From positions 1-33,805 of IMG/VR virus record IMGVR_UViG_3300037804_000023: a DNA stretch of 33,805 nt; one strand, written 5' to 3'. This stretch comes from a virus. Below the pieces are notes generated by a model. The model was given only the letters and a program-made list of their open reading frames with translations, had not been told where the DNA came from and ran no database searches. The position numbers and the translations under genes were made by a program. Below, one piece after another: positions 700 to 33,805 of the stretch (the first letter of the stretch is position 1; each line of letters begins with the position of its first letter).

Positions 700-747
700 T
701 GAGTTACTCCTTATTTAATTTCCATTCCTGCTTGTAGGTGTGATAAA

Positions 748-780
748 ATATAGGGGGCGGAATACACCACCCCCGTATAT
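748..780 (-). terminator. Rho-independent terminator-like hairpin
   Basis: ATATA-GGGGG-C-GG (748-760) pairs with CC-A-CCCCC-G-TATAT (767-780) around an AATACA loop. On the minus strand the helix is followed by TATATTTTAT, a U-rich tail. It begins 13 bases after the stop codon of the minus-strand gene 793-1194, where its terminator would be expected. Confidence 0.6.
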
Positions 781-1218: not shown

Positions 1219-1257
1219 CTAATAATTCATTTATTAGATTGTTGAGCTAGTGCTCAA
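1219..1257. promoter_or_regulatory. Two hairpins between structured RNA and minus-strand gene
   Basis: CTAATAA (1219-1225) pairs perfectly with TTATTAG (1231-1237) around five bases. TTGAGC (1242-1247) pairs with GCTCAA (1252-1257) around TAGT. On the minus strand both would lie in the leader of the gene starting at 1194. On the plus strand they would precede the GC-rich RNA. Their role is unknown. Confidence 0.35.
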
Positions 1258-1265
1258 AACAAACA

Positions 1266-1426
1266 GGGGACGGCAGACCGGAAGGGTGCGGTAGCACGCC
1301 GAGCAGGCGTTGGTTTGAAGCCCGGGGGGAGAGACAAGTTAACCTGAGGGACGATGGTCAACGTAGTCGACCCCCCATAGGGCGTAAAAACAACCCACCC
1401 GGTCAACGAACAAACCGTGTACTCCC
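1266..1426. ncRNA. Putative structured RNA of unknown family
   Basis: This is a strongly GC-rich block with no ORF, in an AT-rich phage. Its complementary segments nest into one closed architecture. P1: 1267-1273 with 1415-1417 plus 1423-1426 (5-nt bulge). P2: GACCGG 1276-1281 with CCGGTC 1399-1404. Hairpin: GTGC/GCAC 1286-1297. Hairpin: GCC/GGC 1298-1308. P3: GGTT 1312-1315 with AACC 1392-1395. P4: GCCC+GGGGGG 1320-1329 with CCCCCC-ATA-GGGC 1371-1383. GAC/GTC: 1333-1335 with 1366-1368. P5: 1338-1344 with 1356-1362. GGTCAACG occurs twice (1356, 1401). The strand is undecided: the one mismatch in P5 (A1341/C1359) becomes a U-G wobble on the minus strand, which would make it a leader of the 793-1194 gene. 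It could equally be a free small RNA or an orphan of a large RNA family. Confidence 0.5.
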
Positions 1427-1468
1427 ATTCTACAGCAATTTTTCAAATAGTTTTTTATTGTTTTTGTA

Positions 1469-1481: not shown

Positions 1482-1715
1482 ATGAATTTTATAATAATTT
1501 TAATCATTTCAGGTATTTCAGTAAGCTTTATAGCAGATGAACCTACAATCTCTGAAGGGGACTATTCATTATATGATACTATATATGACCAAGACAGTAC
1601 AAACCATCAATACATAGACATACGTAACGGTGAGAACTGGTGTTGGAGACACAATATATGGGAGAATGTTAGGATAGTGAACCCTAGTAGAGTGCGTAGA
1701 AAAGACGAAGAATAG
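1482..1715 (+). CDS. Small exported protein, unknown function
   Basis: The frame is open from a TTG at 1458, but the ATG at 1482 gives a clean protein of 77 residues. Residues 1-17 are a hydrophobic stretch (MNFIIILIISGISVSF) followed by an acidic region, as in a signal peptide or N-terminal membrane anchor. No Cys sits at a lipobox position. The remainder is polar with a NGENWCWRHNIWENV patch rich in Trp. No Shine-Dalgarno is seen. It is the first plus-strand gene beyond the structured RNA. Function is unknown; a membrane-acting early protein is one possibility. Confidence 0.5.
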   Translation: MNFIIILIISGISVSFIADEPTISEGDYSLYDTIYDQDSTNHQYIDIRNGENWCWRHNIWENVRIVNPSRVRRKDEE

Positions 1716-1864: not shown

Positions 1865-2515
1865 GTGGTTGATATACATCAGTATATAAAGAGTGATGAT
1901 AAGCTCAACTATGAGTTATTATGGAAAAACTGTGCTAATATCACGGGATTCCAAGCTGAACGTAAGAGAGGAGTGTTATACTATGAGGTCACAGAAGCAT
2001 ACAAGGATTACAAAGCGTCTTCTAAACATACTAAGGATGGTATTCCATCTACAGATGTTAAAGATGAGGTACTACATAACCCTACTACTCAAGTACCTAG
2101 GTCTTCTAAAGTAACAGAAGACTTTGTTATTTCGTATATAAACAAAGAAGCTCAGTCTAATTTTGTAAAGACCGGTGAATACTGTACATATGATGCCGAT
2201 GAAGAGCGTTATATAGCAGAAATCAAAGTTCGTAATAAGCATTATGATACTTGTCTAATAGAATGGGATAAGTATATGGCTAATAAGGGACACGCAGACA
2301 TAGATGATAAAGAGTTTCTTTACATAGTTGCTACAAATTCACATATATATGTATTTAACATCAATACAATCCAGAAAAGTAGGTCTAAAATACGTTGGAA
2401 AGACCAGGAATTACCAAGAAATAGCCATTTTGGTGGATATAATGATAAAAAGACTAAGAAAGTGGGTTATATTCCAATAGGAAGAGCAAGTGTTTGTTAT
2501 AACTATAAATCATAA
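1865..2515 (+). CDS. PD-(D/E)xK nuclease candidate
   Basis: A 216-residue protein with a GTG start; AAGGGGTGG lies about ten bases upstream. Residues 108-137 match the core of PD-(D/E)xK nucleases: acidic residues D110 and D112, a beta strand ending in E119-I-K121, then a helix containing CLIEWDKY. Strands FLYIVATNSHIYVFNI (151-166) continue the alpha/beta core. Such folds cut DNA with Mg2+, for example resolvases and recombination or host-DNA nucleases. The substrate cannot be told. It overlaps the next gene by 26 bases and is upstream of the terminase genes, so it may work in packaging, recombination or host DNA breakdown. The call rests on motif pattern, not alignment. Confidence 0.6.
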   Translation: MVDIHQYIKSDDKLNYELLWKNCANITGFQAERKRGVLYYEVTEAYKDYKASSKHTKDGIPSTDVKDEVLHNPTTQVPRSSKVTEDFVISYINKEAQSNFVKTGEYCTYDADEERYIAEIKVRNKHYDTCLIEWDKYMANKGHADIDDKEFLYIVATNSHIYVFNINTIQKSRSKIRWKDQELPRNSHFGGYNDKKTKKVGYIPIGRASVCYNYKS

Positions 2516-3272
2516 AGACATAGGACCTACAGAATACCCTGTATACACTAAAGATGAAGCTGATTCAAATGATATTACTTACCTACATTGGCAAAAGGCT
2601 AATAAAAAACAGTGGGCACTTACCGATGACAATTATGTTGCAAAGGTTATTAGTAAGAAATCTTATCAAGACAAGGAGAAAAGAATGTCCTATTATTATA
2701 GGATGCCTTTTGGTTATATTATGTGGAATCCTAAGTATCCTGATAAGAAGTTTTGTTGTGGGGGTAGGGTAGCTAACAATACATTTACCGGTGAAAAATG
2801 GTTAGATGTAAAAACTAAGTCTGAGGACTATAAGTCTTTAGCAATGTGGGCGGCTTTAACTGAAAATAGGGATGTTGCTATTGACCAAGTGTTTGGTCCT
2901 GTAAATGCAAGTAAGAGGCGTAAGTTAAAGCGTCATATGAGAACGGAGGTTTTTAAAAAAATGAAGAGAGATGAAGCTCAAAAACTATTAACTGACAATA
3001 TGTTGGATGCAGACTACTTTATTGATTTAATGAAGAAGGGAGTAGATATTGCACTAAAGAAAGAAGATGTCAGTGGTATTCGTGGATTTGTAAATGATGG
3101 TATGGAAATACACGGAATGAAGGATAAGGAAACAGTAACTGTTACCGATAAGCTAGAAGCAACACAAACTAGGAAACTGATTGATAATATCAATTCAGAG
3201 GAAGATAAGTTAATTGCATCTAGAACAACTAAAATGCCTATTGAGGAGGTAAAGAATGGAGATGATGAGTAA
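2490..3272 (+). CDS. Putative terminase small subunit
   Basis: A 260-residue protein with GTG start and an AGGAAG a few bases upstream, inside the end of the nuclease gene. It is mostly charged. The C-terminal half (about 155-260) is predicted helical, with a conserved-looking IHGMKDKETVTVTDKLE stretch near 207-224 and an acidic tail. No catalytic motif is visible. Position just before the large terminase, separated only by two tiny genes, is the main reason for calling it the DNA-recognition subunit of the packaging motor. The N-terminal half contains CC at about 89-90 and many aromatic residues, unlike typical compact small terminases, so it could be another pre-terminase protein. Confidence 0.45.
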   Translation: MFVITINHKDIGPTEYPVYTKDEADSNDITYLHWQKANKKQWALTDDNYVAKVISKKSYQDKEKRMSYYYRMPFGYIMWNPKYPDKKFCCGGRVANNTFTGEKWLDVKTKSEDYKSLAMWAALTENRDVAIDQVFGPVNASKRRKLKRHMRTEVFKKMKRDEAQKLLTDNMLDADYFIDLMKKGVDIALKKEDVSGIRGFVNDGMEIHGMKDKETVTVTDKLEATQTRKLIDNINSEEDKLIASRTTKMPIEEVKNGDDE

Positions 3273-3402: not shown

Positions 3403-3520
3403 GTTATTATTATTTATAGCAGGAGTATTAGTATTAGTAAATAGTATGTTATGGTCCAATGGATATTGGAAAAAATATGGTAAGTATGGAAAATGGATAT
3501 CCGGGAAACTGTCCAAGTAG
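3395..3520 (+). CDS. Tiny single-span membrane protein (41 aa)
   Basis: AAGGAAGG lies five bases before the ATG. The first 18 residues (MIELLLFIAGVLVLVNSM) form one hydrophobic segment, followed by an aromatic and lysine-rich tail (YWKKYGKYGKW). This suggests an N-out single membrane span with a basic cytoplasmic end. It overlaps the upstream tiny gene by 8 bases and the large terminase by 28. Function is unknown. Confidence 0.5.
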   Translation: MIELLLFIAGVLVLVNSMLWSNGYWKKYGKYGKWISGKLSK

Positions 3521-5010
3521 ACGATTACGAAGCCAAATACGCACAACAACAAGCTCTAAAAAAACTTAGAGATAATGTTGGGCTATTTGGTAGAACAATG
3601 TTTCCTACTGCTATTGCAAAAGCAGTTCCTCCATTTCACCACGAGATATACAAAAATCTGGCAGATGAGGCGAGAAAGCGTGTACTGATTGCCGCTCCTC
3701 GGGGAACGGCGAAAAGTACAGTGACCTCCTTAATTCTACCCCTTCATAGAATAGCTTTCAAGCCCTCTGCCAGTGACCTTTTTATTGTTATAATATCAGA
3801 GTCACAATCTCAGAGTATAAATTTTTTATCAAGAATTAAGTATCACTTAATTAATTCACAAAACTTTAAGGAGATGTTTGGAAATTATGGACCAGAGACT
3901 GCAAAGCGTTGGACGAATAACGATATACTTCTTGCAAATGGTGCACGGATTATTGCTGTGGGAACTGGACAGCGTGTACGGGGGTTTATCGAGGGTGACA
4001 CTCGCCCTAATCTTATCATTGTTGATGACTATGAGTCTGAGCTTAACGCCGCTACTGCTGAGGCTAGAGCAAAAAATAGAAAATGGATAACTGAAGCTGT
4101 TATTCCATCTTTGTCTGATGATGGAAGAATAGTTATGATTGGAACTGTTATATCTGAAGATTGTTTTTTATATTGGGCTAAGGAATCACCAGTTTGGAAA
4201 GTACTTTGGTATTCTATATATGATGATGATGGGCAAAGTATATGGGAAGAAAGATTCCCCGAAGAACGAATACAGTCAATAAAACAAGAATTTGAATCTG
4301 TTGGTAATCTTAATGGATTTTACCAAGAGTATATGAACGAGGCACAGAGTCCGGATAATGCACCCTTCAAACCGAAATATATTAAATTACATCATTTCCA
4401 GTTTTCCCATAATAACGGCGAAAGTATCCTTATCGGTAAGTCAGGTGGAAAAGATATTAAGAAACCAGTTAACGTCTATTGTGGCATCGACCCTGCTAGT
4501 AGTCTATCTAAGCGTTCTGACTTTTTTGTTATTGCTACTCTTGCACTTGACGCTGATGGTAATATTTATATACTGGATATACTCAGAGATAAAATCGACC
4601 CTGCATACCAACCTGAAGAAATTATTAAAGTATTTAAAAAATATCACCCAAAAAGAATGACTATTGAGACTGTGGGCTACCAAGAGGCACTTAGGAGTAA
4701 CGTAAGAAAGATGATGCTAGAAGAGAACCTATATATACCGGGACTCGAAAAAGGCATAAAACCAAGACAAAGAAAATCCGAACGATTGTTGTCCTTGGTT
4801 GCCCCTCTCGCTAAAGGTGAGTTTTATTTTAGACCAGAAGATTTACACGCACAACAAGAGTTCTTATCTTACCCAAGAGGTAAACACGATGATATTCTTG
4901 ATGCAATATACTATGCACTTGATAAAGCAAAGCCGTCAAGGCAGAAAGAATACATAAATCCAGAGGACAGAAAAGGAAGAACAAAAGTCCTTGACTGGAT
5001 GACATTATAA
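3493..5010 (+). CDS. terL: Terminase large subunit
   Basis: A 505-residue ATPase-nuclease that powers DNA entry into the procapsid and cuts the concatemer. The ATPase domain has Walker A APRGTAKST (68-76) and Walker B LIIVDD (174-179) followed by the catalytic acidic E181 region. A TGQRVRG coupling-like motif lies at 158-164. The nuclease domain has the RNase H-like acidic set: D333 in GIDPAS, E392 in TIET and D466-D467 in KHDDILDA. Length is normal for the family. The start ATG lies inside the previous tiny gene and has only a weak ribosome site, so coupling is likely. Portal follows after 18 bases, the standard order. Confidence 0.95.
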   Translation: MDIRETVQVDDYEAKYAQQQALKKLRDNVGLFGRTMFPTAIAKAVPPFHHEIYKNLADEARKRVLIAAPRGTAKSTVTSLILPLHRIAFKPSASDLFIVIISESQSQSINFLSRIKYHLINSQNFKEMFGNYGPETAKRWTNNDILLANGARIIAVGTGQRVRGFIEGDTRPNLIIVDDYESELNAATAEARAKNRKWITEAVIPSLSDDGRIVMIGTVISEDCFLYWAKESPVWKVLWYSIYDDDGQSIWEERFPEERIQSIKQEFESVGNLNGFYQEYMNEAQSPDNAPFKPKYIKLHHFQFSHNNGESILIGKSGGKDIKKPVNVYCGIDPASSLSKRSDFFVIATLALDADGNIYILDILRDKIDPAYQPEEIIKVFKKYHPKRMTIETVGYQEALRSNVRKMMLEENLYIPGLEKGIKPRQRKSERLLSLVAPLAKGEFYFRPEDLHAQQEFLSYPRGKHDDILDAIYYALDKAKPSRQKEYINPEDRKGRTKVLDWMTL

Positions 5011-8199: not shown

Positions 8200-9516
8200 A
8201 TGGCAAATGTATTTAGTCATAAAACAGGTGTAACTCCGGGTGGCGTGTCGATTGACGACAACCGCCGGATTTATAACTTTGGCGAAAGAGTCGCTGAGTT
8301 AGCACCTCAACAGTCTCCGTTCTTTGTATATCTAAGCAAAATGGCTAAAGAAGCTACTGATGACCCAGTATTCAAGTTCCTTGAACAGCGTCATCAATGG
8401 CAACGTAGAGATTTTGAATTAAAAACTGCTATAAGTACACAGGTCACTAAAGGTAGTGATTCTGCTGAACTTAAAATGGTTTGTGGATATGACAAATTCG
8501 GAGTAGAAACAGCGGCAAGTGCCGCACCACAATTCTTTGTAAAGAACCAAGTTGTTAGAATTGGTGGCAAAGCGTGGAAAATCAAATCAATCGAGAATGT
8601 AGGTACTGGATTAAACGCAACTTATGTGGCTGGTACAGTTGGCACTTACTCATCAGTTAAACTAACAGCACTAGAAGATTCTGGTACTTTAGCGGCTGGT
8701 GTAAAGGGTCAGATAATCGGTAGTGCGTATGGTGAAGCAACAGTTGACCCAGACGGATGGAAAGATGAACTCTACACTAGAGAAGGTTACTGTCAGATTT
8801 TTAAAACTGGCATTCAGCTTTTCTCAGGTACAGCTCTAGCGACTCGTTACAGAGGTCGTCCAGATGAGTATCGTAGAGTATGGTCTAGTAAGTTAATGGA
8901 ACATAAGATGGACATTGAACACGCTATGTTGTTTGGTGTTGGTGCCGCTGATGAATCAGCCTCTGTTGGTCCTATTCGTTACTCACACGGAATTGTGCCT
9001 TATACTTTAGCTAATGGAAAGAACTATGCTTTCTCTTATGCTAATAGTACTTATGACACATTCATCGATTCAATGAAGGACTTCTTTGCTCCAGAAACTG
9101 GAAACAGTGGAGACAAGTTGGTTCTTTGTTCTCGTACAATCTTAGCTTGGTTACAAAAGCTAGGGGCTAATGGATTCTTGAAGAACACTGTAACTTCTAG
9201 CTCTTATAAGTTAGATGTTCAGAATATTCAGGGTGCATTTGGGCATCAGGTAACAAAGGTAAATACCATTTTTGGTAACTTACACTTTATTGCTGAGCCA
9301 TTGTTTAGAGGGCAAGACGATAATATTGCAGTAGCTATTGATATGGCTAATGTAAAATATCGTCCATTGGCTGGTAATGGTATCTCAAGAGATACACACA
9401 TTATCACTAATGTGCAGGATAACAATATGGATGGAAGGAAAGACATCGTAATGACCGAAGCTGGTCTTGAGATATCTCTTCCTGAGACTCACGCCTTAAT
9501 GACCTTTGGAACTTAA
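8200..9516 (+). CDS. Major capsid protein (HK97-like fold)
   Basis: A 438-residue protein with AAGGAG nine bases upstream. Its N-terminal GERVAELAPQQSPFFVYLSK (27-46) and the central helix with KLMEHKMDIEHAMLFGVG (229-246) are typical of major capsid proteins of the SU10/DUF5309-type HK97-fold group. Residues about 80-190 look like an inserted beta-rich loop domain. It follows the scaffold and is followed by a strong hairpin. Subunits would assemble the icosahedral shell. The subfamily name is from pattern memory and less certain than the capsid call. Confidence 0.88.
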   Translation: MANVFSHKTGVTPGGVSIDDNRRIYNFGERVAELAPQQSPFFVYLSKMAKEATDDPVFKFLEQRHQWQRRDFELKTAISTQVTKGSDSAELKMVCGYDKFGVETAASAAPQFFVKNQVVRIGGKAWKIKSIENVGTGLNATYVAGTVGTYSSVKLTALEDSGTLAAGVKGQIIGSAYGEATVDPDGWKDELYTREGYCQIFKTGIQLFSGTALATRYRGRPDEYRRVWSSKLMEHKMDIEHAMLFGVGAADESASVGPIRYSHGIVPYTLANGKNYAFSYANSTYDTFIDSMKDFFAPETGNSGDKLVLCSRTILAWLQKLGANGFLKNTVTSSSYKLDVQNIQGAFGHQVTKVNTIFGNLHFIAEPLFRGQDDNIAVAIDMANVKYRPLAGNGISRDTHIITNVQDNNMDGRKDIVMTEAGLEISLPETHALMTFGT

Positions 9517-9535
9517 GCGTAGGTAAGTTAAAATG

Positions 9536-9553
9536 GGGGGTCTTCGGACCCCC
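9536..9553 (+). terminator. GC-rich UUCG hairpin after capsid gene
   Basis: GGGGGTC (9536-9542) pairs perfectly with GACCCCC (9547-9553) around a stable C(UUCG)G tetraloop. It lies 20 bases after the capsid stop codon. No T-run follows (TATTAAAAGG), so it may protect the capsid mRNA from 3' decay or reduce readthrough rather than stop all transcription. The next ribosome site (AAAGGAT) comes just after it. Confidence 0.6.
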
Positions 9554-9568
9554 TATTAAAAGGATAAT

Positions 9569-10624
9569 ATGTCATTAACAAGTAAAGTACAAAATTATAC
9601 AAATAGCACATCTTCAGAGAATATATCAGATGCGTTAAATAGAGCTGTTGATTATTCAATATCTATTGTAGCTCAAGTAAATCCGGGATTACTACCTGCT
9701 TTTTCTAATGTACAGATTATAGTTAATAATACAACCTCTCTTGGTTATGATTATTATTCAGGAAACAAGACATACCATTTATTAAAAGTTGAAAGAGCGG
9801 ATGGCGAAGATACTTATAGACACTGTCAGCCAGTTCCAGACTCACAAGCAAGAGACGCTTTTAATACAAATAGCATTTATTATGCATTGCCTGATAATCC
9901 TGTTTATTGGATAAGCGATGAAAATAGTTTATTTATGGCACCGTTAGCTACTGCTCAAGCCAAAAAAGGTTTTAAAATAACAACAGTTCCAGATTTTAGC
10001 GGAAGAACTATAAATGATGGTGCTGAAACAATTACTCAGTTTCCAAAAAATTTCAATGAGTTAGTCATACTTCATTCAGCAGAATTAATACTAGTAGAAA
10101 GACTTGCAGATTTTAGAACAAAGTTACCAACAGATTTAGATGCAGATACTACTTTGTTTGACCAAATAGCAGATGTGTCTGCGAGTATTAGTTATACTTT
10201 TCCATCTGCTGATTTTCAAGATGCAATAGATAAATCTAAAAATTTAATAAGTGGAACTACTATGGGTGGAGATACTGAGCCAGAAAGTGCACAGTATTGG
10301 TTAGCTGATGAAGATGAAGATATGACAGCCTCTACACTACAAGTTGCTTCTCAAGAGTTACAAAGAGCCAATTCTATTTTAGGAGAGTTTAACGCAGAAC
10401 TAGGTGCTCAATCTGCTCAAAAGCAACAAGTCTTGGCTGAGTTCCAAGCTAATCTCCAAAAGAAAATGGGATTATATGATAAAATTATTCAAAAAATTAC
10501 AGTAGATTATCAATGGACACAGGGTCAATTACAACTTATTGGTGCAAAAAAACAAGAGTTTATACAAGTTAACATTGGAAGTGCTGGTATAAAAGACGAC
10601 CCTAAGGAAACTAAAGCTATATGA
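9569..10624 (+). CDS. Neck/adaptor-type virion protein with C-terminal coiled coil
   Basis: A 351-residue protein with AAAGGAT before the ATG. Residues 1-250 look globular, with alternating helices and strands. About 258-335 form a long coiled coil with Gln/Ala heptads (ELQRANSILGEFNAELGAQS). It is the first gene after the capsid hairpin, where podovirus-like genomes carry head completion and neck proteins. A structural role is inferred from this position and the fold pattern; the exact family is not recognised. Its stop overlaps the next start by four bases. Confidence 0.55.
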   Translation: MSLTSKVQNYTNSTSSENISDALNRAVDYSISIVAQVNPGLLPAFSNVQIIVNNTTSLGYDYYSGNKTYHLLKVERADGEDTYRHCQPVPDSQARDAFNTNSIYYALPDNPVYWISDENSLFMAPLATAQAKKGFKITTVPDFSGRTINDGAETITQFPKNFNELVILHSAELILVERLADFRTKLPTDLDADTTLFDQIADVSASISYTFPSADFQDAIDKSKNLISGTTMGGDTEPESAQYWLADEDEDMTASTLQVASQELQRANSILGEFNAELGAQSAQKQQVLAEFQANLQKKMGLYDKIIQKITVDYQWTQGQLQLIGAKKQEFIQVNIGSAGIKDDPKETKAI

Positions 10625-14260: not shown

Positions 14261-16013
14261 ACAATGGAAACAAGTACAAAGAGCTGACTCTGATTTTGCT
14301 GGTAACGTAACTGGTAAAGTCAATAATGTTGTTGTTAGTAATGTATACACTACTAGCAACAAACCTAGTAAAACAGATGTAGGTCTTGGCAATGTAACCA
14401 ATGAATCAAAAAGTACTATGTTTGCTAATCCTACATTTACAGGTACGCCAAGCGGTATAACTAAAAGTCACGTAGGTTTAAGTGCTGTAGAGAATTTTAG
14501 TAAAGCAAGTATATTAGGTGGTACCTTTACTGGCGATATAGGCGGTACAAGTGCGGCTGATATTAAGGCTAAAGCTGTAGCTGGAGAAGCGGCTAAAAGT
14601 GCTGTAGATGGTAGCACAGCTATTACTATGGTAGGTGGTTCATTAAGTATTGGTACTGCTTCAGGTGGAGTATATCCTTTTTCAGTAGATACTTCTGGTA
14701 ATTTAAAAATTAAAAATGATGAGTTCCAAGCATTAGCAGATGGTACTGTTAACTGTAAAGGTAGCTTTACTATTAATCAAGATTCTAGTAGTAATTCAAA
14801 AATACTTTTATCAGGTTCAGGTAATGGTACTGCTGAAGTAGAAGTACAGGGTGCTAATCCTACATTCGACCTTGGTGGAAGTAGTCCACTTGGTACATCT
14901 ACTTTATATATTAAAAGAGGTGGAACAAACAACCAAGCTAGAATAAACTTTAGAACAGGAACTGGGGCTACAACATTTGCTATAGGTAACTCTAATAATA
15001 GCGGTATAAACGACCAATTTGCTATAGCTACTAGGTCATTATGGAGTAGTGGAACTGCACCTGAAAGAGCTTTATCTTTTGATGCAGATGGTAAAATAGG
15101 TATGTATTCTAATAGTAAGACTGTTGCAGGATTTACATTTGGTAGCGATGGTACTAATAAACACGTTTATGTTAAAAGTGGTGGCTTAGGAGTTGGTACT
15201 ACTTCTTTCGTAAACGGAGGAATAACTAATGGAAGCGGTGGAATAACTACAGACGGAGATATGTTTGTTGGTTCAAACTTAACTGTAGATGGTGGAGATG
15301 CTACATTTTATAATGATGTAGGTGTTCAAGGAAATCTAGACGCACAAACATATAGTGGTAACGGTTCTGGATTATCAAATATTGTACCAGCTAATAACTC
15401 TGTAACTCTCGCAAAAATGGCAGATAATTCAGTTAGGGTTGCTGAGTTAGATACAAATAATACTCCAGCTTCTGGACAGCAGTTAACTTATATTCCATCA
15501 GGAACAGGGTTATCTTGGATAAATCCAGTTGATGTATGTAATTGGCAATGGAATGCAAGATGGTATACTAGATATAATGATTATTTTTACCCTAATAGTA
15601 GTTATGGTATGAACGAGCCAAACTGGTCTACTAGTTCATCTAGTGCTAAGACTACTTGGTTAGCATATCATATGCCACCTTTTGTTGCTCCATTTGCTTT
15701 TACACTTACAGAATGTTTTCTTCGTGGTGCACCAACTAGTGGTCAGACCTTTGAGCTTATATTAAAGAAAGGAACTCCTAGCTGGGCTAATAGTTCTTCA
15801 GCTACTACTATTGCAAATATAACTAGTGGCAGTAGCTTAGAAACATTATATTGTACACAAAGTAGAAAAAATGAATTAGGGCAACAGGCTTTAAGTGTAA
15901 GTGTAGCTAAGGGAGATATACTTGTTCCTCAATTAAGAAGGGTAACAGGCAACAGCTCGACTTATATTTATTTTCAAGGAGTTTTTAACATAGTGGGACA
16001 TAGGACAATATAA
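14253..16013 (+). CDS. Tail fibre protein B, likely receptor-binding
   Basis: 586 residues. The N-terminus copies that of fibre A, and [18 protein letters not shown] and [10 protein letters not shown] match fibre A modules. Middle segments (about 130-400) are beta-rich with [14 protein letters not shown]-type fibre motifs and Gly/Ser/Asn-rich turns. The last 150 residues are a different Trp/Tyr-rich beta domain beginning near [11 protein letters not shown] and ending with DILVPQLRR and [15 protein letters not shown]. Such C-terminal domains are usual receptor-binding heads in marine phage fibres. No S74 autocleaving chaperone motif was seen. It ends in TAATG with the collagen-like gene. Confidence 0.8.
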
Positions 16014-17245
16014 TGGCAAGACCAAAGAAATTTTCAACCCACAGAGGAAAAACTTTAGAAACAAAAACCGATACTGAGTTTGAAGCAAGGCAAGATGAAT
16101 TAGACGATATTTACAACAACGCAAATGACGGTACAGGTGCTCACGATACTGAGGAAGTAGCTATGATAAAAAAGCTATTTGTAAAGTGTGATGAGATTAT
16201 TGATGATGTAGATACTATATCATTAACAGCAGGTCCCAAAGGTGACAAAGGCGATACAGGTTCAGCAGGAGCTAAAGGAAGCACAGGTTCTCAAGGTCCA
16301 GCAGGACCAGCAGGTGCCGTAGGTGCTAAAGGTTTAACTGGAAGTGCTGGTAGTAACGGCACTAACGGAAGCAATGGAGCTAAAGGCGATAAAGGTGACA
16401 CAGGTGCTCAAGGTCCTACAGGTCCTAAAGGCAGTACTGGTTCAGCTGGAGCGGTTGGAGCTAAAGGCTCAACTGGTAGTGCGGGAAGTAATGGAACTGA
16501 CGGAAGTGATGGTGCTAAAGGGGACACAGGAAGTACTGGAAGTCAAGGACCGAAAGGTGACACTGGTTCAGCTGGGGCTAAAGGTGACCCCGGTAATGAT
16601 GGTAGTGATGGAGCTACTGGAGCAAGAGGTGCTACAGGTGCTACAGGTAATGCTGGGACAAATGGCTCAGCTGGTGCGAAAGGCGATACTGGCTCTACAG
16701 GTCCACAAGGACCAAAAGGCGACACTGGCTCGGCAGGAAGTAATGGAACCAATGGTTCAGCTGGAGCTAAGGGCGATAAGGGAGACACTGGGGATACTGG
16801 ACCCACAGGACCCGCAGGAAGTGCTGGAGCAAAAGGAGATAAGGGTGACACTGGAGATACTGGTGCCGCTGGAAGTAACGGGACTAATGGTTCGGCAGGT
16901 GCTAAAGGTGATAAAGGAGATACCGGAAATACTGGAGCAACTGGTCCTCAAGGAGGAACAGGAGCTACTGGGGGAGTAGGACCTAAGGGTGATACTGGTA
17001 ATGCAGGGGCAGATGGAACCAATGGAAGTAATGGTTCAGCCGGAGCAACAGGAGCACAGGGACCAAAAGGAGATACTGGAAGTGCAGGTGCTACGGGTGC
17101 TCAAGGTGCAACTGGTGCAACAGGAGCCGCAGGTTCAAATGCCGCTGTTTCAGGATATGATGGAACCGTAACTGTTGTTTATAACAGTAAAGGGCAAACA
17201 AAAGACTTAACATTTAAAAGCGGTTTATTAAAAAGCGTAAAATAA
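16013..17245 (+). CDS. Collagen-like virion fibre protein
   Basis: 410 residues: an N-terminal charged helical region (1-73), 101 uninterrupted G-X-Y triplets (74-376) and a small C-terminal beta domain (377-410, ending [10 protein letters not shown]). The triplets are rich in [10 protein letters not shown] and GSNGTNGS units, with few prolines, as in bacterial and phage collagens where Lys/Asp pairs stabilise the triple helix. Trimeric collagen-like rods occur in phage fibres and act as spacers or adhesins. It follows fibre B by a TAATG overlap, so it is probably another fibre or fibre extension. Synonymous codons vary strongly between units. Confidence 0.85.
16232..17140 (+). repeat. G-X-Y triplet repeat tract
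   Basis: Tract encoding 101 triplets without a single interruption. Protein units recur ([22 protein letters not shown]) but their DNA differs by synonymous changes, so long identical DNA repeats are rare. Other frames also stay open because of the repeats. Confidence 0.85.
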
Positions 17246-29739: not shown

Positions 29740-32700
29740 ATGGCACAAGAAGGTTTGTTTGAACCTAAAGCCACGAAGGAACAAACTAGGGAATCAGTAA
29801 CGAAATATAGGTTACGCCCTGAGCTTTGGGATGGCAATGAGAAAGAGATAGAAAATCTCAAAAGACACGCAGAACATCATAGGATACCCTTTTCTCGTAG
29901 TAACCAACATCAAGACAGTTTTCTTTCAGGCGTATTAAAGAACTATGGTAGAGGTGTTATGGAGGGCTATACAGCTAACATAGCACAATTCGATGACCAA
30001 CCAGATACTGTAAGTGAAAAAGTAGCTAGACAGCTTGGTTCTCTATCAGGATTCCTTGGTAAATTACCGGGAGGTAAGTTTAGTAAAACTATTAGAGCTA
30101 TTAACGCTGTAACAGCAGGAAGGTCTTTACCTTTAGCTGGAGCAAACGCTGTTACCAAGTTTGTTAGTAAAACAGGTAAACCCATTATACGGGATATGCC
30201 TAATGTTAGAAAATTATTCCAAGAAGAAAATTTAGCTGGTGACGTATTAAAGGGAGCATTTCATTTAGGAACTGCTAGTGCTATATCTGATTGGAGAGGT
30301 GTAGTAGATGAAGGTATGCCTAGACTTATAGACGCATTTAAACAAGGTGGTATTTGGGGTGGTGGCTTTAGAGCTATAGGTAATATGAAAGGCTTTGGTA
30401 AAAGATTACAACCTCATCAAGTAGACTCAGGAACTATGATGCCTATAATGAGCAAGTTAGAACCCGGTCAAAAGTTTGATGCTATATTAAAAGCTGGTAC
30501 TATGGGTGCAATACAAGGTGGATACGCAACAAGTTTAGACTTACCATTAGAAGAACAAGTATATGAATATGTAATGGGTGCTTACTTTGGTTTTAACGAG
30601 ACTCCACTTCAATTAAGAATATCAAAGAAAGCTATTGCCGAAACTATATCTAAGAAATACGAAGACCCTACTGGATTACCTGACCCAGAGATGCATCCGA
30701 AATGGGATACTTGGACTAATGAAGCACAGAAATATATAAAAAGAGATTTTAAAGAATTTTTTGGTGAAAAAGAAGATGTAAGAAGAGCTACTTATAAATT
30801 ATACAAAAGAAGTTTAGCTAATGGCGGTGTAAATGAAAAAGATATTATTGAAGAAATGGAGTCAATGGTAGCTAAAAATCTTGAGGGAACTGAATTTGCA
30901 CCTGATGGTAAAGTAATTAAACCTATTAGTAAAGGTGATATCAAAAGAGTACAAGATATTATAAAAGACAATCCTAATAAAGAAGAATATCAAGACCTTG
31001 ATATGCACATCAATGAGATATCTAAGTTACCGGGGAAAATATCTGGTCAGGGTGGATTTGTTGATAGATATATAATGCCTAATATAGATGGTGGTAACAC
31101 AGCAGATAGGTTAGTTGAGTCTTTAAAAATTAATAAACAGTGGGATAGTTTACATCAAATAGTTAAAGGCGTTAATATGCCTAGAAAAGGTGCTGTAGAC
31201 GTTATGTATGACTATCTAAAGAAAGAATATAAACGTACTGAGCTGTCACAACCCGAAATGGATTGGTGGAGAAACTGGGCTGAACAAACTAGAAAAAAGA
31301 AACTTGTATTACAAACATATTTTGCTGATGGTAAAGTTGCTTATGTAGACAAGGGAGTTAATATACTTGGTAATAAAAAAGAATTAGTATTTGAACCGCC
31401 TTTAATGGAGCAAGTATATCAACAGTTAGGTGGTGAAGGTAATTTTTATGCTATATCTGACCACTTTGTTAGGAAAGGTAAAGAATATAAGCTTAACGAT
31501 GTAAATAAATTACAGGATGATTTATATAGAGAGAAAGGTGGTAGAAAGAAAAAAGCTGAGAACATTATAAAACAAATAAAAACCAAAATGTTAATAGAGA
31601 TGGATAAAGAAGGTTACCATTATGTTGGTGGTCGTGGCGATAAAAAAGCTATGTACTTTGTTAAAAAGAATCCACAAGTAAGAGGTAGTGTTCAAGAGAA
31701 TATGCTACAAATAAAGAAAGCTTTTGTAGATGCTGGTATGGATGCTGAAAGATTTGACAACCTTAGAAATTATAGTAAAAGACAATTTTGGTCTAAGAAT
31801 AGAACTTTACGTCAAGATTATTATGATGAGGCTTTTATAAGCAATATACATTACGATGTTTATAATAATTTTGGAGCCACTGTAAAAGACTTTAACAAAG
31901 CCTTGGTTCAAATGTTAAGTAATAAAGGTTATGTTAGTGACTCTAAGGCATATAATAAAAGAGCACAGATTTGGTTTAATACTGGAATGAGTACTAATGA
32001 TGTTGTTGCTAGAAAGTATTTAAAAAAGTATGCAAAAAGATATAAAGAACAAATAGAAGCTTTAGATTTCTTTGGGAGCGATGGAAACTTAAGAGCTCGT
32101 GGTCAGTTTTGGAATGATGATGTAAAAAATTCAAAGAGCAAAAAGGTGCTTCGTAAAAACTCTGAAAGACCTGAATCTTTTGATGGTGGTATACCTGCAC
32201 TTCCAGAGTTTGTATACGCTTTAAACAAGGCTAATGGAATAACTAATGAAGGTGCGGTTAATAAATCTTTTATTGTATCTCCTAATGGAAGACACGGAGC
32301 ATTACTAGGAAAGTATATGTTTTTTGAAGCTACTCCTGAAATGGCGGCTTCAATGAGAAAGGATGGCATACATTTCATTGCACCTAAGTCTGCTATAAAA
32401 CAATTTGGCACACGAAGATATGGTGATGTTGTTGAAGCTGGAATTAAAGATGGATATACTAAACAAGATTTTGAAAATGAAGTAAATGCTATGGGGTTAA
32501 AACATAAGAGACATCCATCGGACCCTGATAGAATAGGTGAAGTTTTTATACCAACAGATTTGCAAAGACAGGGCTATGGCACAAGGTTTTTAAAAGCTTT
32601 TGAAAGGTATAGAGCAAACGAAGGGGCTACTCAAGTAAAGATTAACGCTATAGGTGGTCGTAAAGATTTAGGTAGTTTTGATTTAGATAATGTAAACTTT

Positions 32701-33805
32701 TGGAAAAAGCAAGGTTTTAAAGTAGACACCAAAGAACTTGAAAGAATGAAAAAAGCTGGTATAGATGTCCAAAAAATAAAGACTAGTTTTAATCCAAAAG
32801 CAATAGATAAAACTGTTGGTGTAGTTCCAATGGTAAAAAGTATTAAGCCTAAAGACCAAGCTAGGATGCGTTTTGAAGGACCTACCTACGATATTAGGTT
32901 AGACAACATTAGAACAGTATTATCTGAAGTAACAGGTAATAGAGATATGGATGGTGCTAAGTTCGCTAAACAGCTATGGTCTACTATAACGCATTTTGGA
33001 ATTAAACCCACTGACCCTAAGCTTGTTAAATTAATGTCTGACGAGCTAATTAGAAACTCTGTTGAAGGTGATAACGATTTAAACGCTCAATGGGATGAGC
33101 ATATTAAAGCACCAAATAAGGTTTCTGAAGCTAAAGTGTTAGAAAATCTAGATGAAATTTCATTGCAAAGACTAATGAATGCAGTTGTTGATAAAGATAA
33201 TGAAGGTTTTGCTAGTAAGATTTATGATGGTATCTTAAAAAAGTCAAATGAAATTGAAGCACAAAAAGCAGAAGACTCAGAAACTAATAGAGATGATTAT
33301 TTTAGTGCGGCTGGTGAGATAAGCGAGTTTGATACTATAGTAGATAGAATGAGTGAGTTGTATCCAGATGGCAATCTTGGTTTCTATATGCATAAGATGG
33401 CTAAGAACTATAGACAACAAGCTGTTAAGAATTATATAGTAGATAGAATTAGTAGACCTAAATTAAAAAATGGAATGAAATCAAGAATGAGACCTTGGGA
33501 CCATTCTATGTGGAGCCATAAAAAGTTTAGCATCTTTGACGACTCAGATGGAAAAGGACAAGAAGTATTTTTTCTAGATGATGGAGCTAAACAAAAAAAG
33601 ATATATGACCCGTTTTTTGACAAGGGATATGAGACGCTAGGTAACATATGGAAAAATAGAAAACTAGGCGATAAAGGCATATATAAGGACAATTTAGACT
33701 ATGTAGATGACATACTAGAAGCTGTTAATATGAGAGTACCTATGGATTCTCAAAGTGGTGCACACGTTTTAAAGTTTGCTGGATTTACTGGAACTAGAGG
33801 TCACG
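29740..33805 (+). CDS. Giant virion-associated polyvalent protein (partial)
   Basis: Open from the ATG at 29740 to the window edge, 1355 codons with no stop. The frame is inferred by reading codons through. The N-terminal 250 residues contain Gly-rich, hydrophobic parts. Residues about 855-1010 look like a GNAT acetyltransferase core: a strand before, Q942-RQGYGT (acetyl-CoA loop, QxxGxG) and a following helix, then FWKKQGF at 987-993, a typical end strand of GNAT. At the visible end is PMDSQSGAHVLKFAGFTG (about 1335-1352), of a type seen in very large phage polyvalent proteins. Such proteins are injected with the DNA and carry effector domains. Full length and end are unknown. Confidence 0.65.
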   Translation, partial: MAQEGLFEPKATKEQTRESVTKYRLRPELWDGNEKEIENLKRHAEHHRIPFSRSNQHQDSFLSGVLKNYGRGVMEGYTANIAQFDDQPDTVSEKVARQLGSLSGFLGKLPGGKFSKTIRAINAVTAGRSLPLAGANAVTKFVSKTGKPIIRDMPNVRKLFQEENLAGDVLKGAFHLGTASAISDWRGVVDEGMPRLIDAFKQGGIWGGGFRAIGNMKGFGKRLQPHQVDSGTMMPIMSKLEPGQKFDAILKAGTMGAIQGGYATSLDLPLEEQVYEYVMGAYFGFNETPLQLRISKKAIAETISKKYEDPTGLPDPEMHPKWDTWTNEAQKYIKRDFKEFFGEKEDVRRATYKLYKRSLANGGVNEKDIIEEMESMVAKNLEGTEFAPDGKVIKPISKGDIKRVQDIIKDNPNKEEYQDLDMHINEISKLPGKISGQGGFVDRYIMPNIDGGNTADRLVESLKINKQWDSLHQIVKGVNMPRKGAVDVMYDYLKKEYKRTELSQPEMDWWRNWAEQTRKKKLVLQTYFADGKVAYVDKGVNILGNKKELVFEPPLMEQVYQQLGGEGNFYAISDHFVRKGKEYKLNDVNKLQDDLYREKGGRKKKAENIIKQIKTKMLIEMDKEGYHYVGGRGDKKAMYFVKKNPQVRGSVQENMLQIKKAFVDAGMDAERFDNLRNYSKRQFWSKNRTLRQDYYDEAFISNIHYDVYNNFGATVKDFNKALVQMLSNKGYVSDSKAYNKRAQIWFNTGMSTNDVVARKYLKKYAKRYKEQIEALDFFGSDGNLRARGQFWNDDVKNSKSKKVLRKNSERPESFDGGIPALPEFVYALNKANGITNEGAVNKSFIVSPNGRHGALLGKYMFFEATPEMAASMRKDGIHFIAPKSAIKQFGTRRYGDVVEAGIKDGYTKQDFENEVNAMGLKHKRHPSDPDRIGEVFIPTDLQRQGYGTRFLKAFERYRANEGATQVKINAIGGRKDLGSFDLDNVNFWKKQGFKVDTKELERMKKAGIDVQKIKTSFNPKAIDKTVGVVPMVKSIKPKDQARMRFEGPTYDIRLDNIRTVLSEVTGNRDMDGAKFAKQLWSTITHFGIKPTDPKLVKLMSDELIRNSVEGDNDLNAQWDEHIKAPNKVSEAKVLENLDEISLQRLMNAVVDKDNEGFASKIYDGILKKSNEIEAQKAEDSETNRDDYFSAAGEISEFDTIVDRMSELYPDGNLGFYMHKMAKNYRQQAVKNYIVDRISRPKLKNGMKSRMRPWDHSMWSHKKFSIFDDSDGKGQEVFFLDDGAKQKKIYDPFFDKGYETLGNIWKNRKLGDKGIYKDNLDYVDDILEAVNMRVPMDSQSGAHVLKFAGFTGTRGH

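Follow-up and report, generated by a model that had tools for sequence, protein, structure and literature searches.

The genomic locus

The DNA analysed here (hereafter the window) comes from a virus: it is the 33,805-base contig of IMG/VR record IMGVR_UViG_3300037804_000023. The preliminary description of the window, made from its letters, singled out a GC-rich block at 1266-1426 that has no open reading frame and is sited between divergent gene sets, and both statements agree with the gene map. The element to which the block belongs always lies between a leftward operon, of which gene X is the first gene, and a rightward operon that carries TerS, TerL and the structural genes; it stands upstream of TerS-TerL also where the intervening genes have been lost. 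From gene content we infer that these operons are early and late, respectively. In the annotated relative (G002), X is followed in the leftward operon by genes of replication and recombination, and this operon holds primase-helicase, Sak4-like, Gp157-like and HNH genes. In another relative (L119), a ThiF/E1-like gene is found within the replication operon (9462-10145, minus strand). The cumulative GC skew turns at the element, as expected at a point where early and late genes diverge. Coordinates are collected in Table 1.

Table 1. Features of the locus in the window, from left to right
Feature	Positions	Strand	Basis or match
Motif A, GTAGGTGTGATAAAATA; single copy per genome within the window's clade	734-750	+	sequence
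GC-rich hairpin that directly follows motif A, past the X stop codon	752-777		
Gene X, first of the leftward operon, 133 aa	793-1194	-	no family, no PDB fold match
Extra hairpin CUAAUAA-UUCA-UUUAUUAG of the window's own subgroup, stems changing in step	1219-1237		alignments, sequence inspection
Whole conserved element: 5' hairpin, structured core, 3' block	1239-1443	+ (provisional)	model match 1263-1449, alignments
P0 hairpin UUGU-UGAGC-UAGU-GCUCA-AA-ACAA, directly 5' of the core	1239-1262	+	own versus swapped halves
Near-invariant box CAGGGG	1264-1269	+	alignment
P2 5' arm GACCGG, partner 1399-1404	1276-1281	+	fold, covariation, alignment
Next inward helix of the window's fold, 5' arm GGGU, partner 1393-1396	1284-1287	+	fold
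Inner GC helix (P4) 5' arm GCCCGGGGGG, partners 1371-1376 and 1380-1383 across a 3-nt bulge	1320-1329	+	fold, alignment
Conserved box UCAAC	1358-1362	+	alignments
Inner GC helix (P4) 3' arm CCCCCC-AUA-GGGC	1371-1383	+	fold
GUAAAAAC, counterpart of conserved GUGAAAAC; GNRA-like loop or helix strand	1384-1391	+	alignments
P2 3' arm CCGGUC	1399-1404	+	fold, covariation
3' block GUACUCCCAUUCUACAGCAAUUUUU, best-conserved part of the element	1419-1443	+	alignments, 3' pattern search
3' block read leftward, TAGAAT then GGGA	1423-1432	-	sequence inspection
Small ORF, 77 aa from ATG, next rightward gene, no evident Shine-Dalgarno	1482-1715	+	
260-aa gene upstream of TerL, small terminase (TerS) by position only	2490-3272	+	no family match
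Terminase large subunit (TerL)	3493-5010	+	phrog_38, E 1e-96

Across the relatives, X measures 97-149 aa and falls into two protein families that cannot be aligned with each other. AlphaFold models of both families gave no match in the PDB, the model of the window's X being of low confidence. Because the element persists across both families, its presence is not bound to a particular X protein. On the other side, the small ORF next to the element is absent from several relatives; it and its homologues share a hydrophobic start, a conserved REGENWCWLHNxWENVRIV-like segment and a U-rich leader. Farther along, the window contains a tail fibre gene with long collagen-like repeats (16013-17245) and a giant gene of the structural operon (29740-33804, open; 9343-18483 in L116), which encodes about 2,800-3,150 aa in full-length relatives and has no family match except for a weak acetyltransferase hint.

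Just past X, genomes of the window's clade carry the site GTRGGTGTGATAAAATA, which is unique, and a hairpin; among relatives, this hairpin is frequently interrupted by a conserved internal loop, GUGUGUGKC ... AACGCAC or GAAGCAC. Motif A, which is missing from more distant relatives, may be a rightward extended -10 promoter or the tail of the terminator of X. About 20 related contigs (L002, L018, L023, L031, L035, L061, L068 and others) start in or near the hairpin behind X. A physical genome end (cos) at this site was considered and rejected: contigs reach it from the right side only, and a contig ending there lacks the approximately 8 kb by which spanning contigs continue leftward. In L047, L061, L063, L068 and L073, a conserved T-rich stretch lies about 150-250 nt behind the 3' block, before the TerS-side gene, and is possibly a late promoter, judging from its letters.

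Composition and folding of the block

The block was described as distinct in base composition, and so it is: its GC content is 61%, against 37% in the window, and 1266-1426 is the highest-GC 161-nt stretch of the window, with no other stretch reaching 61%. Folding energy relative to shuffled sequence had been proposed as a check, and the block gives z -2.3 on the plus strand (2 of 200 shuffles) and -2.2 on the minus strand. Since these values are only moderately better than those of shuffled sequence on either strand, the folding of the window sequence alone is poor proof of a structured RNA. It is the homologues, not the single-sequence fold, that decide whether the structured element is real.

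Homologues and their distribution

With the window's TerL as the query, 80 related contigs were gathered, and more than half of them show recognisable block DNA in the corresponding position, most of the others being too short on that side. A pattern taken from the 3' end of the element yielded further homologues, distant lineages included; its one bacterial match, within a long ORF of a Binatia MAG, was set aside as chance. In short, the element occurs in about 80 phage contigs or loci, once per genome and at the same place, and these counts are not independent because the loci are related contigs, many of them short.

A first covariance model, built from 17 relatives with the window left out, matches the window with 45.9 bits (E 3e-8). 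It finds one match per locus in 69 of 71 loci (the window and 68 others), with an orientation that never changes with respect to TerL, and 8 long contigs yielded one copy apiece. Among 39 loci whose TerL is more distant, a second model matches 15, although many of the 39 are too short for a judgement or have diverged too far; this model gives no match in seven unrelated virus contigs used as controls. Over 47 homologues, the mean folding z is -3.8 on the plus strand and -2.8 on the minus strand. Among named phages, searched by DNA and by TerL, no close relative turned up (TerL identity does not exceed about 27%) and none carries the element.

Rfam 15 was searched with the window at the gathering threshold and with the block and ten homologous loci at a relaxed threshold. 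No family exceeded the curated threshold in the window, HEARO, GOLLD and ROOL included, and the relaxed search of the block and the ten loci returned only chance matches, so the earlier admission that no family could be assigned holds. The element is thus a new RNA family, previously uncatalogued, in uncultivated phages. That a GC-rich, folded block in a phage might belong, as an orphan or in degenerate form, to a known large class (HEARO/omega RNA, as had been suggested, or GOLLD, ROOL, group I/II intron or retron RNA) is extremely improbable: there is no Rfam match at the gathering level and none credible at the relaxed level, the HEARO/omega RNA model has no match in the window, the block or the ten loci, intron and retron RNAs have no Rfam match in the window, and both the TnpB/Cas12f zinc-ribbon domain and the reverse transcriptase domain RVT_1 are absent from 8 contigs in searches that detected their positive controls (the accompanying search for the IscB RRXRR domain had no positive control).

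Architecture of the element

The block as originally delimited corresponds to the core of the element; as the full element it falls short, missing the 5' hairpin (1239-1262) and the 3' tail to 1443. On the plus strand, from 5' to 3', the order is P0, CAGGGG, the long-range helix P2, its continuation P3 and variable inner arms, followed by UCAAC, a run of C, GUGAAAAC and the 3' arms of P3 and then P2. UGUAUAUCACG often comes next, and the 3' block GUACUCCCAUUCUACAGCAAUUUUU, which is single copy in the window, stands last. Near-invariant boxes flank P2/P3, namely CAGGGG on the 5' side, UCAAC...CCCC inside and the 3' block. A hairpin of variable sequence occupies the P0 position in nearly all homologues, and in a crude split into halves, own halves did better than swapped ones (0 of 2000 permutations).

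The inner arms vary among homologues, are branched in some of them (the window included) and are poorly aligned. The GC stem of 10 bp with a 3-nt bulge reported earlier as P4 is consistent with the relatives: both arms of this helix, like those of P2, change in step in L008 and L011. The C run of its 3' arm could pair with the 5' GGGG as a pseudoknot. For the outer helix GGGG/CUCC the homologues give no covariation support, GGGG being nearly invariant, and GGGG could equally pair with the inner CCCC. In that alternative, as in the pairing of GGGUAC with GUACUCCC, the arms are nearly invariant and so offer no covariation. An apical loop GGGACGA of the inner arm (1346-1356 in the window; same place in L016, L018 and L004) is conserved in several subgroups and is, by its sequence, a candidate for a loop-loop contact.

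Covariation of P2 and P3

In an alignment fitted to the structure, double changes occur in all 14 P2/P3 pairs. Of the cells, 82% are paired (56% when shuffled) and 203 are doubly changed (73 when shuffled); the covariation score is 0.48 against 0.15, with 0 of 500 shuffles as high, and controls with slid alignments reach at most 0.11. Because this alignment leans to the structure to which it was fitted, two unfitted tests were added. When the P2/P3 arms were swapped among members, in a sample where the arms overlap in a few short members, own partners gave -32.3 kcal/mol and swapped partners -20.6 kcal/mol (0 of 2000 permutations). P2 alone forms 4.5 pairs with its own partner and 3.9 with swapped ones (0 of 5000). 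Its variants include GCACC/GGUGC, GCGUC/GACGC, UCAGC/GCUGA, GAACC/GGUUC, GUGCG/CGCAC and others, next to GACCGG/CCGGUC in the window.

Compensatory changes hence exceed the relatedness controls, whether shuffled, slid or swapped, and such changes keep P2 and P3 intact in sequences that have drifted beyond the reach of ordinary alignment. The preliminary description had staked its proposal of a closed multi-helix RNA in part on covariation in homologues, and with the P2/P3 covariation found, the proposal stands. The element is almost certainly a conserved structured RNA.

The transcribed strand

We infer that the element is transcribed, probably from the plus strand and so rightward. The minimum free energy is lower on plus than on minus in 42 of 47 homologues, and where a helix is predicted on both strands, a single change yields G-U 55 times and A-C 25 times (31 and 16 after rough de-duplication). 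The mismatches of P2/P3 are A/G-rich on the plus strand, and A/G-rich mismatches are usual in RNA. Other counts are neutral or point the other way. An unfiltered wobble test gave 36 versus 33; a strand-neutral stem finder gave 17 A-C versus 7 G-U, mostly from one repeated position; and the window and its closest relative differ by 4 A-C and 0 G-U changes, which favours the minus strand, where these are wobbles. For promoters upstream of the element, the leftward -10-like sequence in the 3' block and the rightward motif A are both sequence resemblances, and no convincing plus-strand promoter was found adjoining P0.

Possible roles of the element

Our preferred reading, held tentatively and at somewhat less than even odds, is that the element is a cis-acting leader RNA on the plus strand. 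The rightward transcript would open with the element, which would set early versus late expression. It might, for example, modify the host RNA polymerase as this passes, with antitermination across the long late operon, or hide the start of the gene that follows. A conserved partner, for which RNA polymerase, the ribosome or a phage protein are candidates, would make contact at the boxes CAGGGG, UCAAC/CCCC and 3' CAUUCUAC..AAUUUUU, while P0, P2, P3 and the inner arm would form a scaffold free to vary. A constant place and orientation, one copy per genome and the covariation of P2/P3 speak for a cis-acting leader; energies, z-scores and wobbles in helices predicted on both strands speak for the plus strand, as does, in the window's clade, the unique extended -10-like motif A, which lies 560-715 nt upstream of the 3' block and faces right. 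A leader RNA with a regulatory role where early and late genes meet would agree with the place, the invariant boxes and the variable scaffold. Against this reading, a T-rich stretch resembling a promoter separates the element from TerS in some relatives, so that the late genes may do without the element's transcript. The spacing, too, tells against a rightward leader, as the distance to the next plus-strand gene varies widely (-17 to 443 nt) whereas that to X is narrow (40-98 nt).

The same spacing lends some weight to a leader on the minus strand, a possible but doubtful reading that the preliminary description had also offered. Here the 3' block would be a leftward early promoter with transcription starting at about 1421, and the structured block would be the 5' untranslated leader of X and the early operon, acting by put/nut-like passage of the hairpin terminator behind X or by control of X translation. 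Judged from general promoter knowledge, TAGAAT-GGGA resembles a -10 and GGGA discriminator and is a possible promoter for X; the element fills the gap from the 3' block to the ribosome site of X (median 70 nt); and directly behind X follow a hairpin and then TATTTTAT, which are terminator-like. The A-C changes of the window's closest pair add to this. However, family-wide energies, z-scores and de-duplicated wobble counts favour the plus strand, no -35 element is seen, and TAGAAT breaks in distant relatives (CATTCTCG, CATTCTCA), where CATTCT and the T run are kept. Read backwards, the 3' block also resembles a promoter of T7-type RNA polymerase; this candidate was rejected. The motif occurs once per genome. 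A search of 20 contigs for PF00940, made with no positive control, found none, and polymerase motif B was not found in the giant proteins.

It is unlikely, if still a fair candidate, that the element is a trans-acting stable RNA or RNA-protein particle, for instance one that belongs to the packaging machine or that regulates the host's polymerase or ribosomes; a free small RNA was among the readings of the preliminary description. The compact covarying fold, the invariant boxes and the single copy would suit such an RNA, and so would its place, always upstream of TerS-TerL even with the genes between lost; yet this place may reflect only the start of the late operon, no promoter or terminator was found that would bound a stand-alone plus-strand transcript, and no known trans-acting family matches. 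More specifically, that the element is the packaging RNA of a tailed phage of the terminase type, acting in trans as part of the TerS-TerL motor or in loading it, is suggested only by the constant position and is highly improbable; to our knowledge, it would be the first packaging RNA outside the phi29 group.

Scarcely more probable is an element that works as DNA, with its inverted repeats serving as a replication origin or a pac/cos site. It could account for the turning point of the GC skew, for one copy per genome near TerS-TerL and for the contigs that end in or near the hairpin behind X; those ends lie at a different place, about 300-450 bp to the left of the element, with none seen that ends there from the left side, and P2/P3 are long-range, irregular and covarying, with mismatches that are A/G-rich on the plus strand. 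A ColE1-like replication primer was also rejected, since the U-rich 3' end would argue against a stable hybrid.

Whichever reading applies, a large lineage of uncultivated phages keeps one RNA architecture at the early/late junction while other sequence has diverged past ordinary alignment, and because the architecture persists despite this divergence, a strong function in gene control, packaging or host takeover is to be expected. With about 80 loci, two covariance models and defined boxes, the family is definite enough for testing, and the element can serve as a metagenome marker for this phage lineage.

Comparison with known systems

The put RNAs of phage HK022 and the nut and PR' leaders of lambda are structured RNAs that open phage operons in divergent control regions. 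The element shares this structured character and this setting and, if read leftward, is also followed by one gene and then a terminator-like hairpin. It differs from put RNA, which measures about 70 nt, in its length of about 200 nt, its other architecture and its invariant 3' block; antitermination by the element is hypothetical and its strand provisional. The pRNA of phi29 is likewise a phage-encoded structured RNA of similar size, with variable sequence and a conserved fold. The element, however, comes from a terminase-type phage and has other boxes, the pRNA model in Rfam has no match in the window, the block or the ten homologous loci, and a packaging role is hypothetical. Part of the family forms a rod-like hairpin interrupted by internal loops, as 6S RNA does; here the differences are the lack of a family match, invariant boxes unlike those of 6S and the fixed phage locus. 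GOLLD and ROOL, whose models find no match, are several times larger than the element, which shares with them the character of a conserved, ornate phage RNA without known function.
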